Source: Microcaldota archaeon (GTDB lineage: Archaea; Micrarchaeota; Micrarchaeia; Micrarchaeales; Micrarchaeaceae). Taken from it: 37,508 nt of DNA. The stretch is from assembly GCA_027317945.1 (NCBI GenBank), contig DAHVQB010000008.1:1-37508 (forward strand). The letters are read 5' to 3'. Below are positions 3,063 to 32,506 of the stretch, piece by piece. Every line of letters starts with the position of its first letter. Position 1 is the first letter of the stretch. The notes under the pieces were generated by a model, which had not been told where the DNA came from, searched no databases, and was given only the letters and a program-made list of their open reading frames with translations. The translations under genes and the position numbers were made by a program.

Positions 3063-3165
3063 TGGGCCCGGAGAGATTTGAACTCTCGGCCTCCCGATTT
3101 CTGCAGTAAAGCTTCATTGAAGCTTATATCAGTCGGGCGCTCCAACCAGGCTAAGCTACGAGCCC
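3063..3165 (-). tRNA. tRNA-Ile(GAU) with an intron
   Basis: The minus strand folds as a tRNA: acceptor GGGCTCG/CGGGCCC with one G-U pair, discriminator A, anticodon stem CCCGA/TCGGG and T-arm GAGAG-TTCAAAT-CTCTC. The mature anticodon loop CTGATAA carries GAU. A 28-nt intron (3099-3126) sits at the canonical 37/38 position and contains the hairpin AAGCTTC-AAT-GAAGCTT. The cut points fall after the second base of 3-nt bulges (TAT and AAA), as tRNA splicing endonuclease requires, although the central helix has only three Watson-Crick pairs. CCA is not encoded. The gene follows the AMMECR1 stop by 21 bp on the same strand. Confidence 0.93.
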
Positions 3166-17748: not shown

Positions 17749-18583
17749 TCATAGAGTTGCACCTTGGGGCGTATCAGTGCTGCCCTTCAACACATCTCTG
17801 TCTGTGCTGAATTGACCTATGCCATCACGTTTCGCTATATTGAACGATGCATTTACATCGGCATTGTCAAAGTGCCCACACGACTGGCACACAAATTCTT
17901 TTCCTTGTCTTGTCCCTATGTTTCTGCACCTTGAACACTCTTGCGATGTGTATTTAGGCTCCACATAGGCAACTGATATTCCGCATGATTTTGCCTTATA
18001 TTCGATGAATTGCTGCAACTGGTAGAATGACCAACTATTTAGTGCAAAATTGAATGACTTTCTGTGTTTCCTGTTCTTCCTGATTCCTTCCAGTTTCTCA
18101 AGTTTGATGCCGTATTGATTCTCTTTTGCAGTTTCTACTATCTGGATTTCCAACAACTACGATATGTCCTGTTGTGTTTAAGTCTACACCTATGAAGCCT
18201 TTTGGTTTGAGTGCTTCTGGCTCTTCAATTGAAACAGAAACATAGGCATAAACAGAGTCAAATTCAATCTGGTTTATCTTCTTGAAGTTATCTGGGAATT
18301 GGTATGGCATCTCAAGTTTGAGGGATGAAACTCTGATTATATGTTCTTTGATAGATATTCCCTGACTTGGAACAATAAGATTCACATTTCCAACTCTCTT
18401 CAGTTTTCTGTTCCTTGCATACTCACGAAGTATTTGATTGGCGATAATTGACTTCAATCCGTATTGCTTCACGTCTGCGGTTGTCTGGGTTCTGGTTTTC
18501 ATTGCGACTTCTGCAATCTGCCGAGCCTTCTTTAGTTCTAATGAGAAGTCTTTGTTATGCTTGATTTTATAGGTTAGAATCAT
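17749..18583 (-). pseudogene. tnpB: tnpB, RNA-guided endonuclease remnant (frameshift plus internal deletion)
   Basis: Two overlapping frames make one broken TnpB. The first (18583 down to 18098) holds the N-terminus up to GVDLNTTGHIVVVGNP, the RuvC-I aspartate. The second (ending at 17749) resumes at IQIVETAKENQYGIKLEKLEGIR, with the RuvC-II glutamate, the zinc finger (CSRC...CQSC) and the RuvC-III aspartate in NADVNASF. Intact archaeal TnpBs have about 60 more residues between GNP and the ETAK helix. That bridging segment is missing here, and the join near 18140-18155 changes frame. All catalytic residues survive but not in one reading frame, so nuclease activity is unlikely. Confidence 0.85.
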
Positions 18584-25611: not shown

Positions 25612-28600
25612 ATGTTTATGGCGATGGGCATGCTGAAGAGCCTCAGGAAGCGCGATGGCAGGGTGGTCAGGTTTGATGTGTCCAAGATAGTCAATGCAGT
25701 GCATGGCGCAATGACGGACGTTGGCTTTGACGATAAAGATATGGAAAAGTCAACAGCGATAGCAAAGATAGTGGTGGACAGGCTCGGGAAGAAGTTCGGG
25801 AACTCCACGCCTGGCGTTGAGGACGTGCAGGACCTGGTTGAGGAGGCGCTTATGTCTGAGAAGCTTCCGCATGTTGCTAAGGACTACATACTTTATAGGA
25901 ATGCGCATAGGGAGCTTAGGCTATTAAAATCCATGATGGGCGTCTACAACGACGAGCTGAAGATGAGCCCGAACGCCATCAGTGTGCTAAACAGGCGATA
26001 CCTTATCAAGGACAAGAACGGCAATGTGGCAGAGACGCCCACCCAGATGTTTTCAAGGGTGGCAGTTTCCGTAGCCAAAGTTGATAAAACGTACAAGGAG
26101 AACCCGGACACGAGCAAGAAAGCGTTCTATGACATGATGAGCAACAAGCTGTTCATGCCAAATTCTCCGACGTTGATGAATGCCGGGACTGGATCGAACC
26201 AACTGAGCGCGTGCTTCGTCCTGCCAGTGGAGGATTCACTTGATGGCATATTTGATTCGATACACAAGATGGTCAAGATACAGCAGACAGGCGGGGGCAC
26301 GGGGTTCAGCTTTTCGCGGCTCAGACCGGAAGGGGACTTCGTCAAGACAACGCAGGGCGTCGCGTCAGGTCCGGTGTCTTTCATAAGGGTATTCAATGCA
26401 GCAACGGAGGCCATAAAGCAGGGAGGGAAGAGGCGCGGGGCCAACATGGGAATGCTGCGCTATGACCATCCGGACATAGAGAAATTCATATCGATAAAGC
26501 TCGACAAGAGCGAGCTTACGAACTTCAACATATCGGTGAGCTGCGATGACAAGTTCATGGACGCCGTAGCACACGACAGGGGCATAGAACTGATAAATCC
26601 CAGGACAAAAACGGCCGTGCGCAGCATAAATGGACGAATGCTTTTCAACACGATAGTGTCGAACGCGTGGAAAACTGGAGACCCGGGGTTGGTCTTTATA
26701 GATGAAATAAATAGACATAATCCACTGAGCAAAATAGAACATATAGAGGCCACAAATCCCTGCGTCACTGGTGATACGCTAATAAGCACATCGGAAGGGC
26801 TTTTCACAGCGAAAGCATTGTATGAGATGGCCCGACCAATTACAATAATAGTAGATGGCCGCTTTGGGGCAGGCACAAGGCAGATATCGTCACCAGTTAT
26901 TCTAACCGGCACGAAGCCCGTAGTAAGATTGACAATGAAAGAGGGATTTATGATAAGATTGACCATTGACCATAAGGTTTACAGCGAAGAAAGGGGGTGG
27001 GTCGCTGCGGGCGAACTCAGAGATGGCGAGAAAGTACGCATATCAAATAGTGTAGGAGCTTTTGGAAGAACCGGCACCGCGGCAGAGGGGAAAGTGCTTG
27101 GCTGGCTTGTCGGTGATGGCCATATAAACATGGGCGCAGGAAACGACTGCGCAGTCCTTTCGTTTTACGGCAATGATATGGAGCTTGCAGAAAGTTTCGC
27201 ATACGATGTCAATAGCGTTATAAGGCACACCAAGTCAAGTAATGGCATCAATAATGTTGGCATAGTTACAATTCAACAGCTAAAGCGGAAGACTATTGCT
27301 TCGGAAAGATTGAAGGAATTCGCTTTAAGATACGGGCTTGGCGAGCAGAAGCTCAAGGTACCTGAGGCTGTATTCAATGGTTCAGAGGAGATGCAAAGGG
27401 GCTTCATGCAGGCGCTCTTCGAAGCAGATGGCACTATTGGAAAACAAAGCAAGTCCAGGAATACTGTAAGGCTCACTTCGATAAGCGAGGAGTTACTTAG
27501 AGGTGTTCAACTCCTTTTACTCAACTTCGGCGTTAGTAGCCGAATATATAGAAATAGGAGGAACGCAGGCACAAGAATGATGCCGAGCGCAGACAGGATG
27601 ATCCTGAAAGGATATAAGACAAAAGCAGCCCATGAGATTTCAATCAGTGGCCCGAATATTTTTACTTTTGCAGCAAATATAGGATTCATTTCGAAAAGCA
27701 AAATGGCGAGGTTAGACGAAGTCATTGATAGTTATACAAAGGGGCCTTATACTGATAAAATTAAATCTGCTGTAACTGTCGAATCACTCGTAGAAGACGG
27801 AGTAGAGGATGTTTACGATCTGCAAGAGCCGGTAACGCACTCTTTCATCGGAAATGGAATAGTAATCCATAACTGCGGCGAACAGCCGCTCCTGCCTTAC
27901 GAATCGTGCAATCTTGGCTCCATAAACGTCTCCAGAATAGTGAAGAAGAACGAAATCGATTGGGCCCTGCTCGAGGATGTGGTCACAACGGCCGTGCACT
28001 TCCTGGATAACGTCATAGACGCCAACACCTACATATTCAAGGAGATAGACTACAAGACGAAGGCCAACAGGAAGATAGGCCTGGGCATAATGGGTTGGGC
28101 CGACATGCTCACTGAACTTGGCATTAGGTACGACAGCGCCCAAGCGCTTGGGATAGCTGACAAGCTCATGTCCTTTATACAGAAGACTGCCAAGGATGCA
28201 TCCATGAATATAGGTATCAGGAGGGGCTCGTTCCCAAACTTTGAGCAGAGCACGCTCAGGAAGGGTTACAACGCTATGAGGAATGCCACAGTGACCACAA
28301 TAGCGCCTACCGGCACCATAAGCATAATTGCGAATGCTTCCAGCGGGATAGAGCCTCTGTTCGCCATAAGTTACGTGAGGAACGTGATGGAAGGCACTGA
28401 GCTGCTCGAGGTAAACGACGTGTTCAGGAACTATGCGAAGAGGAACGGCTTCTACAGCGAAGAGCTGATGAACCGCATAGCCATGACAGGTTCAGTGCAG
28501 GGCATGGCCGGTGTACCTAACAAAGCCAAGGAGATATTCGTGAGCGCCCTGGATATCAGCCCTGAATGGCACGTCAAGATGCAGGCGGCCTTCCAGAAGC

Positions 28601-28830
28601 ACGTTGATAACGCCGTGTCCAAGACTGTGAACCTGCCGGCGGATGCGACTACGAAGGACGTGGCGGAAGTTTACATGCTCGCCCACAAGTTGAAGTGCAA
28701 GGGCGTAACTGTTTATAGGTATGGCAGCAAGGAGAACCAGGTGCTCAGCATACACCCCGGTACGAATGTGCCGGTTGTAGCGGGTTCTGAATATGCAGGC
28801 GGCTGCCTGTATCCGTATTGCGAGCGCTGA
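25612..28830 (+). CDS. nrdJ: adenosylcobalamin-dependent (class II) ribonucleotide reductase with an intein
   Basis: A 1072-residue precursor; 701 residues remain after removal of the 371-residue intein (residues 384-754). The enzyme reduces ribonucleotides to deoxyribonucleotides. An N-terminal ATP-cone (about 8-95) precedes the ten-stranded barrel. Cys201 (SACFVLPV) and Cys766 (ESCNLGS) would form the active-site disulfide. Cys755 and Glu757 in NPCGEQ are the thiyl-radical cysteine and its partner, and the 11-residue spacing of Cys755 and Cys766 matches class II enzymes. C-terminal Cys1065 and Cys1070 are the likely thioredoxin-shuttle pair. No small R2 subunit is present, and class II enzymes need none. 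Starts at 25612, 25618, 25624 or 25630 are all possible. Confidence 0.94.
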   Translation: MFMAMGMLKSLRKRDGRVVRFDVSKIVNAVHGAMTDVGFDDKDMEKSTAIAKIVVDRLGKKFGNSTPGVEDVQDLVEEALMSEKLPHVAKDYILYRNAHRELRLLKSMMGVYNDELKMSPNAISVLNRRYLIKDKNGNVAETPTQMFSRVAVSVAKVDKTYKENPDTSKKAFYDMMSNKLFMPNSPTLMNAGTGSNQLSACFVLPVEDSLDGIFDSIHKMVKIQQTGGGTGFSFSRLRPEGDFVKTTQGVASGPVSFIRVFNAATEAIKQGGKRRGANMGMLRYDHPDIEKFISIKLDKSELTNFNISVSCDDKFMDAVAHDRGIELINPRTKTAVRSINGRMLFNTIVSNAWKTGDPGLVFIDEINRHNPLSKIEHIEATNPCVTGDTLISTSEGLFTAKALYEMARPITIIVDGRFGAGTRQISSPVILTGTKPVVRLTMKEGFMIRLTIDHKVYSEERGWVAAGELRDGEKVRISNSVGAFGRTGTAAEGKVLGWLVGDGHINMGAGNDCAVLSFYGNDMELAESFAYDVNSVIRHTKSSNGINNVGIVTIQQLKRKTIASERLKEFALRYGLGEQKLKVPEAVFNGSEEMQRGFMQALFEADGTIGKQSKSRNTVRLTSISEELLRGVQLLLLNFGVSSRIYRNRRNAGTRMMPSADRMILKGYKTKAAHEISISGPNIFTFAANIGFISKSKMARLDEVIDSYTKGPYTDKIKSAVTVESLVEDGVEDVYDLQEPVTHSFIGNGIVIHNCGEQPLLPYESCNLGSINVSRIVKKNEIDWALLEDVVTTAVHFLDNVIDANTYIFKEIDYKTKANRKIGLGIMGWADMLTELGIRYDSAQALGIADKLMSFIQKTAKDASMNIGIRRGSFPNFEQSTLRKGYNAMRNATVTTIAPTGTISIIANASSGIEPLFAISYVRNVMEGTELLEVNDVFRNYAKRNGFYSEELMNRIAMTGSVQGMAGVPNKAKEIFVSALDISPEWHVKMQAAFQKHVDNAVSKTVNLPADATTKDVAEVYMLAHKLKCKGVTVYRYGSKENQVLSIHPGTNVPVVAGSEYAGGCLYPYCER
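26761..27873 (+). other. intein with LAGLIDADG homing endonuclease inside nrdJ
   Basis: An in-frame 371-residue intein. Block A is CVTGDTLI (Cys1). Block B carries LTIDHKVY (the T-x-x-H). The C-terminal blocks are VEDVYDLQEP and SFIGNGIVIHN, ending in His-Asn, and the next residue is Cys (+1). All residues needed for splicing are present. The two LAGLIDADG endonuclease helices are VLGWLVGDGHI (about residue 494) and FMQALFEADGTI (about 598), each with its acidic residue, so homing activity may persist. Insertion is exactly between Pro and Cys of NPCGEQ. Confidence 0.95.
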
Positions 28831-30170: not shown

Positions 30171-30791
30171 TTACTTTGGCGTCTCAAGCCTTGCTTCGAA
30201 GTCCTCCACCCTGTACTTGAACTCGTCGTCAGTCTTTATGGCCCCCTTGGCTTTCAGAACTTCCCTGGCCATGAGGTAGTATATGAACGCGAGCGACTTC
30301 CTGCCCCTGTTGTTGGACGGTATTATCAGGTCAAGGAACTTGGTCGAATTGTCGGTATCGCTCAGGGCTATTATCGGCATGTTGACCTTGCTGGCCTCCT
30401 TTATGGCCTGCTTCTCGTTCCTCGAGTCGCTTATCATGATCAGCTTGGGCTCTGTGAAGTCCTTCCTGTTCGGGTTTGTGAATATGCCAGGCGTGACTCT
30501 GCCCTTTATGAACTTGGCGCCTATTATCTCTGCGAACTTCTCGGCTGCCGCTATTGCGTAGACCCTAGATGCGGTCACTATTATGTCCTTGGGATCGTAT
30601 CTTGAAACCATTGTTGCAGCAGTTCGTATCCTGCCGTCTATCGTCTTCAGATCCAGCAGGTAAAGCCCGTCCTCCCTAGTCTTGTAGATGAACTTCTTCA
30701 TGCCCGGACTCTTCACCTTCGTCGCTATGTGTATGCCGGCCTCAAGGTAGAGGTTATGGTCCACAAGCAAATTCTCCTCGTTTTCTGACAT
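30171..30791 (-). CDS. rps2: ribosomal protein uS2
   Basis: A 206-residue archaeal uS2. Visible features are LYLEAGIHIATKVKSPGMKKFIYKTREDGLYLLDLKTID, TPGIFTNPNRKDFTEPKLIMISD and the IALSDTDNSTKFLDLIIPSNNRGRKS stretch. Start ATG at 30791 is only 13 bp from the mature 3' end of tRNA-Pro, inside the leader AAGAGTGTTTAGA. The longer GTG start at 30800 is rejected as it sits in that leader. It is the last gene of the rpo3-to-uS2 cluster. Confidence 0.96.
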   Translation of the reverse strand: MSENEENLLVDHNLYLEAGIHIATKVKSPGMKKFIYKTREDGLYLLDLKTIDGRIRTAATMVSRYDPKDIIVTASRVYAIAAAEKFAEIIGAKFIKGRVTPGIFTNPNRKDFTEPKLIMISDSRNEKQAIKEASKVNMPIIALSDTDNSTKFLDLIIPSNNRGRKSLAFIYYLMAREVLKAKGAIKTDDEFKYRVEDFEARLETPK

Positions 30792-30804
30792 TCTAAACAC
30801 TCTT

Positions 30805-30895
30805 TGGGGCCGCCGAGATTTTCAGCCTCGTTGGCATTTGAACTCGGGTCGCTACCACCCCAAGGTAGAAGCCTACCAAGCTAGCAGACGGCCCC
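30805..30895 (-). tRNA. tRNA-Pro(GGG) with an 18-nt intron in the T-loop
   Basis: On the minus strand: acceptor GGGGCCG/CGGCCCC, discriminator A, anticodon stem CTACC/GGTAG with loop TTGGGGT (anticodon GGG), and T-stem CCGAG/CTCGG. The T-loop is interrupted by 18 nt (30819-30836) between positions 59 and 60; removing them restores TTCAAAT. The flanks form a perfect bulge-helix-bulge: central helix TTCA/TGAA, two 3-nt AAT bulges, internal helix GCC/GGC with loop AACGA. The mature tRNA is 73 nt before CCA addition. It lies 28 bp after rpo10 and 13 bp before uS2. Confidence 0.94.
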
Positions 30896-30923: not shown

Positions 30924-31124
30924 TTACTTCCTCCCGAACTTTATGAATTCGTCTATGAGCTCCACATTGCTTATGAACATTCGCCTGCAGCAGTACCTTT
31001 TGATTTCGAGTTGGTCAAGAACATTCGCAGGCTCCTCATGCTCCTTGTTCACCTTTTTGTCATAATCGTCCCACTTGTCCGCTATCACGGCGCCGCATGT
31101 GAAACATCTGACAGGTATCATCAT
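30924..31124 (-). CDS. rpoN: DNA-directed RNA polymerase subunit N (Rpo10)
   Basis: A 66-residue zinc-binding subunit, equivalent to eukaryotic Rpb10. The zinc ligands are visible: Cys7 and Cys10 in RCFTCG and the adjacent Cys45-Cys46 in RYCCRRMF. Size matches the family. It helps anchor Rpo3 and Rpo11 to the catalytic core. Its start is preceded by GATGGTGTTTTGAT with uS9 ending 12 bp upstream, so it is part of the same operon. Confidence 0.96.
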   Translation of the reverse strand: MMIPVRCFTCGAVIADKWDDYDKKVNKEHEEPANVLDQLEIKRYCCRRMFISNVELIDEFIKFGRK

Positions 31125-32155: not shown

Positions 32156-32506
32156 TCATATTATAAGATTTATCTTATTCATCTTCACCATGTCCTTTAT
32201 TTCCACTATGTTGCACTTGGCATCCATTAGGGCGCTGCGTGCCGCGATTGAGTATGATATGGCTGATATGTTGACTTTATGGTCCATTGAGCCCACAGAA
32301 AGCACCTTTCCAGGCACTATCACGTTGTCGCCGTCCTTGGTCAGCTTGTTTATCTTGTAAAGGTTGACAGTAGAGCGTATCCTTGATGGTATGGCGACTT
32401 CGTAATGCACCTTCTTCCAAAGACCTGCATAATGCTTCTCCTTAGCCGCTAGGCTCAACACATCCAGCCATTCCTTGACATCCCTGTTTTCAACGTTCAG
32501 TTTCAT
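32156..32506 (-). CDS. rpl18e: ribosomal protein eL18
   Basis: A 116-residue archaeal eL18. Recognisable features are WLDVLSLAAKEKHYAGLWKKVHYEVA at the N-terminus and GDNVIVPGKVLSVGSMDHKVNISAISYSIAARSALMDAKC in the middle. The ATG is 11 bp from the mature 3' end of tRNA-Leu, and its ribosome site GGTGATTGA fills that gap. Confidence 0.94.
   Translation of the reverse strand: MKLNVENRDVKEWLDVLSLAAKEKHYAGLWKKVHYEVAIPSRIRSTVNLYKINKLTKDGDNVIVPGKVLSVGSMDHKVNISAISYSIAARSALMDAKCNIVEIKDMVKMNKINLII

Follow-up and report, generated by a model that had tools for sequence, protein, structure and literature searches.

Introns folded as bulge-helix-bulge (BHB) motifs have already been listed at T-loop and T-arm positions of archaeal tRNAs (PMC12397907, PMC6379350, PMC8450103), and Thermoproteales are rich in noncanonical BHB tRNA introns, which Thaumarchaeota also have (PMC8450103). 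On the multiple-intron tRNAs of Thermoproteales, PMC8450103 cites Sugahara 2008 and Fujishima 2010. ARMAN-1 and ARMAN-2 contain intron-bearing tRNAs and broad cleavage by their epsilon2 splicing endonuclease (EndA) has been established (PMC4033280), in agreement with the broad specificity shown for the epsilon2 type (PMC12397907, PMC6379350). In a 2025 study the assay substrates shown were pre-tRNA-Cys(GCA) and pre-tRNA-Ile(UAU) (PMC12397907), and the literature examined, as far as its text was accessible, contains no report that an ARMAN epsilon2 EndA cleaves a T-loop intron of tRNA-Pro. A family-wide hot spot at tRNA position 59/60 is likewise not described in the literature searched, the scope of which excluded Fujishima 2011 (ARMAN EndA).

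The gene reported here lies in a 37,508-nt stretch of DNA (the window), which is contig 16 of a Micrarchaeota metagenome-assembled genome of 678 kb and 72% completeness. Since T-arm introns of BHB type are already known from archaea, as is an epsilon2 enzyme of broad specificity, its tRNA-Pro(GGG) gene is one more case. In common with other noncanonical archaeal BHB introns are the short insert, the BHB at the junctions, the predicted cuts within 3-nt bulges and the predicted removal by a dedicated endonuclease; in contrast to them, position 59/60 is reused throughout a DPANN family, in the same small set of isotypes (Pro GGG, Arg, Ala GGC). As in the multiple-intron tRNAs of Thermoproteales, relatives of the same genus have two close introns in one arm of tRNA-Pro (53/54 and 59/60), whereas the window's own gene has the 59/60 intron only. 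We consider it very probable (about 95%) that the insert, at position 59/60 of the T-loop, is an authentic archaeal tRNA intron folded as a BHB, which would be cut by the epsilon2 EndA and joined by RtcB.

Anatomy of the interrupted tRNA-Pro(GGG) gene

Read on the minus strand, positions 30895 to 30805 give GGGGCCGTCTGCTAGCTTGGTAGGCTTCTACCTTGGGGTGGTAGCGACCCGAGTTCAAATGCCAACGAGGCTGAAAATCTCGGCGGCCCCA (nucleotide 1 at 30895; nucleotide 91, A73, at 30805), a cloverleaf tRNA with anticodon GGG and a T-loop that is 18 nt too long. The gene, its parts and its immediate neighbours are as follows.

30805..30895, minus strand: unspliced tRNA-Pro(GGG) gene, 91 nt, from direct reading; called by ARAGORN as tRNA-Pro(ggg) only after in-silico splicing
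30837..30895, minus strand: 5' exon, tRNA nucleotides 1-59, anticodon GGG at 30859-30861; near-identical in the family's other genera
30819..30836, minus strand: predicted intron, 18 nt, UGCCAACGAGGCUGAAAA, at T-loop 59/60; missing from five intronless syntenic orthologues
30805..30818, minus strand: 3' exon, tRNA nucleotides 60-73 (T60, 3' strand of the T-stem, 3' strand of the acceptor, A73)
30813..30847, minus strand: BHB motif, from the RNAfold centroid of the arm and inner-helix pairing across relatives
CCGAG 30843-30847, TTCA 30839-30842, bulge AAT 30836-30838, GCC 30833-30835, minus strand: first half of the BHB
AACGA 30828-30832, minus strand: loop of the BHB
GGC 30825-30827, TGAA 30821-30824, bulge AAT 30818-30820, CTCGG 30813-30817, minus strand: second half of the BHB
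30924..31124, minus strand: rpb10 (RNA polymerase subunit N), upstream in the tRNA-Pro operon; order kept in 26/26 relative loci checked
30171..30800, minus strand: uS2 gene, downstream in the tRNA-Pro operon, from Pfam PF00318 and synteny

The order of the T-arm, CCGAG-TTCA-AAT-GCC-AACGA-GGC-TGAA-AAT-CTCGG, is that of a strict bulge-helix-bulge (hBHBh'): at the junctions a central helix of 4 bp lies between two bulges of 3 nt. An earlier note had placed an 18-nt insert at 59/60 in the T-loop of this tRNA and had described its flanks as an ideal hBHBh' (CCGAG/CTCGG, AAT, TTCA/TGAA, AAT, GCC/GGC); the insert is confirmed base for base and each element of the motif is found where the note had put it. 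Cuts two bases into each bulge take out the 18 nt and leave a 73-nt tRNA with the T-loop TTCAAAT. The sequence itself would let the junction move by -3 to +1 nt without a change in the product, and 59/60 is the choice of the BHB rule among these equivalent junctions. In the scan of the window ARAGORN makes no call for the unspliced gene, and a search of the genome gives no Rfam tRNA match to it even at E up to 10. Removal of the insert at the bulges yields a standard 73-nt tRNA that ARAGORN calls as tRNA-Pro(GGG). The BHB is exactly the RNAfold centroid of the isolated T-arm. The minimum of the whole 91-mer is a non-cloverleaf structure of -42.2 kcal/mol, against -33.8 for cloverleaf plus BHB; because the minimum of the spliced 73-mer is likewise non-cloverleaf, folding energy alone proves nothing. 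A group I intron was rejected, as its structured catalytic core takes up some 100 nt at least and the insert has only 18 nt.

The surrounding operon is of typical archaeal type, in the order Rpb3-like RNA polymerase subunit, tRNA-Leu(GAG), a small ORF (32156-32506), uL13, uS9, Rpb10, tRNA-Pro(GGG) and uS2. The small ORF has no Pfam match and its sequence is probably that of eL18, while the product of 30924..31124 is what we take to be Rpb10. The segment uS9-Rpb10-tRNA-Pro-uS2 is found on one strand in all 26 loci checked.

Conservation of the insert and alternatives to splicing

An exon-only pattern allowing 0-30 extra T-loop bases was searched in the 85 family genomes. It recognises a Pro(GGG) gene in 35 of these, with an insert of 12-21 nt in 30 and no insert in five. 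TGAA stands opposite TTCA in 28 of the 30 inserts, TGGA (which still pairs with TTCA through G-U) in one and TGTG in one; the central helix is retained in 29/30 though the pattern did not require TGAA. The inner helix is conserved by covariation: in 21 distinct Pro introns 37 of 42 pairs form, compared to a mean of 28.4 with shuffled partners (1/5000 as high), and for all isotypes 167 of 190 pairs form, compared to a shuffled mean of 86.3 (0/5000 as high). Judged from this comparison with relatives, a chance origin of the insert is excluded, because 30/35 genes carry it at this point, the pairing exceeds that of shuffled partners and reversed patterns give 2 matches in 85 genomes and 0 in 301.

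The same comparison bears on whether the 18 nt leave the transcript. A tRNA that retains them and works, unspliced, with an enlarged T-loop is very improbable, since the exons are nearly invariant while the insert is free to vary except at paired bases, and intronless orthologues equal the spliced form exactly: the tRNA-Pro(GGG) of G042 (L260), in the same operon position, is identical to the spliced product at 73/73 positions. An enlarged T-loop would also lose the contacts between D-loop and T-loop that belong to established tRNA structure. Equally hard to sustain is a decaying pseudogene whose work is done by another Pro(GGG) tRNA. Such a tRNA might lie outside an assembly that is only 72% complete, and truncated tRNA copies do occur in these genomes. 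Against this, the mature sequence is intact and retained inside a ribosomal-protein operon, and its anticodon GGG is the one expected to read CCC/CCU in archaea. Moreover, only one Pro(GGG) was found here, as in all 34 other genomes that matched; a second intact Pro(GGG), which the earlier note had named as counter-evidence if this copy were untranscribed, was not found in the assembly. An assembly or sequencing artefact, conceivable for a metagenome-assembled genome, is scarcely credible at all and already refuted by relatives, with an identical intron in G053 and introns at the same point in 28 further genomes.

With splicing of a genuine intron as the preferred reading, its history can be considered. 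The five intronless genes all belong to genus g15 and are nested among intron-bearing ones in a tree of uS2, Rpb10 and uS9, on which, with its midpoint root and several weak forks, presence and absence of the intron need 2-4 changes. This suggests from the sequences an old Pro intron that was lost more than once, and losses in g15 would be the simplest reading, though an unproven one. In three genomes of the window's genus (G052, G051 and G054; L279, L280 and L281, respectively) tRNA-Pro(GGG) has T-arm introns at both 53/54 (20-23 nt) and 59/60 (13-14 nt), and ARAGORN calls the tRNA only with both removed. The last bases of the 53/54 intron in G051 and G052, CTCGGGAA, copy the 3' strand of the T-stem, and this intron therefore probably must leave first; splicing of these two genes would thus probably be ordered.

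Splicing enzymes and a proposed pathway

A search of the genome for the endonuclease architecture, as the earlier note had advised, found a single EndA of 392 aa, of which residues 7-392 align to 4-387 of the ARMAN-2 EndA 4fz2 (559 bits against ARMAN-2 EndA, 4fz2 and 9w2k). It contains two PF01974 and two N-domain stretches. Y236, H251 and K282, which serve catalysis, and Y160 and K161 of the ARMAN-specific loop (ASL) have been described for the ARMAN enzyme, in which alanine changes at Y160 and K161 left no detectable cleavage (PMC12397907); all five are aligned and identical between the ARMAN-2 protein and the present one. By its chain of about 390 aa, its full-length similarity (three-unit architecture) and its catalytic and ASL residues, the genome's EndA is of the epsilon2 type, and thus the window's genome shares with ARMAN-1 and ARMAN-2 (PDB 4fz2, 9w2k) both the enzyme type and its catalytic and substrate-loop residues. 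The protein has a 100% identical counterpart in Candidatus Micrarchaeota archaeon YP3.bin112; its identity over full length to the EndA of many other Micrarchaeota is about 54-80%. The genomes sharing this EndA, the identical copy included, are Micrarchaeota, which bears out the note's view of a T-loop intron in a DPANN genome. A gene for the ligase RtcB is also present. A relative of the EndA is matched in 278/301 genomes of the phylum, and therefore its presence alone does not predict T-loop introns.

The note had further argued that such an intron implies an endonuclease of broad specificity. An epsilon2-type EndA is indeed present, but the perfect BHB does not by itself imply breadth, because narrow enzymes also cut canonical BHBs. 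Within this genome, breadth is better hinted at by tRNA-Leu(CAA) (L030), whose relaxed T-loop insert is 14 nt long, lacks a clean second bulge and gives a tRNA only on removal.

What is shown is the anatomy of the gene and its conservation, the covariation, the orthologues without an intron and the presence of the two enzyme genes; from these we infer cutting, joining and the order of elbow formation. The T-arm of the precursor would fold as a BHB in which the TGAA at the intron's end pairs with the conserved exon bases TTCA of the T-loop. A homodimeric epsilon2 EndA would then cut two bases into each 3-nt bulge, at 30837|30836 and 30819|30818, and RtcB would join the exons into a 73-nt tRNA-Pro(GGG) with the standard T-loop TTCAAAT. 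Because T54-A57 would be paired in the precursor, the elbow between D-loop and T-loop may form only after splicing, with elbow-dependent steps coming later.

Because TTCRAAT is common in archaeal tRNAs, an intron with TGAAAA as its last bases would bring its own BHB into nearly any tRNA, which may explain the reuse of 59/60. It is a speculative and rather unlikely extension that the 59/60 introns are a lineage-specific, portable population in Micrarchaeota which spreads between tRNA genes and, by blocking the elbow, forces early splicing, ordered in the double-intron genes of the window's genus. If true, portable introns would block the elbow and splicing would precede elbow-dependent maturation.

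T-loop introns as a lineage trait

The family was also searched with the T-loop-intron pattern GTTCAAAN{3,33}TGAAAATC, the reversed pattern serving as control. Matches are present in 73 of the 85 family genomes, compared to two matches for the control. Among 109 pattern loci examined, ARAGORN calls a tRNA in 99 once spliced and in 3 unspliced; the remaining 10 appear to be chance hits that lie outside tRNA genes. The isotypes concerned are Arg(TCG, CCT, TCT), Pro(GGG), Ala(GGC) and a few Lys and Ser, although ARAGORN may have misassigned a few of these labels in cases where it invoked a second intron. The Arg(CCT) type is present in G075, for example. With a stricter pattern 128/301 genomes of the phylum are matched (reversed control 0/301), distributed by row count as 58/85 in this family, 42/79 in the sister family and 28/137 elsewhere. 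Beyond these two families few matches were checked, with one clean tRNA (Arg TCT, L238); the others need a second, possibly spurious, intron or give no tRNA call.

The window's genome itself has four T-loop introns, with Arg(TCT) (L026), Arg(TCG) (L027) and Leu(CAA) interrupted at the same position as Pro(GGG). T-loop introns are the norm in this Micrarchaeota family, not an oddity. The earlier note had given T-arm introns as known mainly from Thermoproteales and some DPANN archaea; the position is unusual, but rarity was overstated for this lineage. Introns of different isotypes within a genome have a mean distance of 0.583, compared to 0.623 when shuffled (4/1000 as low), a difference confounded by composition, which gives a weak sequence hint that introns might spread between tRNA genes within a genome. 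In this DPANN family, which has an epsilon2 endonuclease, T-loop introns belong to the standard, conserved make-up of tRNA genes. ARAGORN and Rfam miss such genes, so that the tRNA sets of these genomes look incomplete. The natural pairs with and without intron, their tRNAs otherwise identical, offer a test of what a T-loop intron costs or does.

Two candidate split tRNAs were rejected. For tRNA-Glu(CTC) (L028, without about the first 11 nt) the expected 5' piece is missing from the genome, and relatives carry both intact Glu(CTC) genes and copies with a similar truncation; the 3' fragment of a tRNA-Leu (L034) lies within a short ORF with a perfect inverted repeat. Both seem to be incomplete tRNA copies, perhaps scars of integration, and not split genes. 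Copies without 5' ends occur in relatives too (L256, L257), stretches starting ATGGCTAGA are found near L034 and L257, and the 5'-less copies are possibly integration scars of a mobile element.

Further observations concern other genes. In the window's genome a tRNA-Ser(GCT) (L029) has an apparent intron of ~30 nt between D-arm and anticodon stem (near 25/26). In the window, a tRNA at 3063-3165 (minus strand) is interrupted by an intron at the canonical 37/38 site; in intron mode ARAGORN calls it Ser(GGA), but the anticodon stem CCCGA/TCGGG with loop CTGATA.. reads as tRNA-Ile(GAT). A ribonucleotide-reductase-like ORF of 1072 aa at 25612-28830 (plus strand) has an apparent intein (CVTGDTLISTSEG ... 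VIHNC). Two overlapping ORFs at 17749-18583 (minus strand) look like a broken TnpB-like gene, the second having a Pfam Cas12f1-like TNB match.
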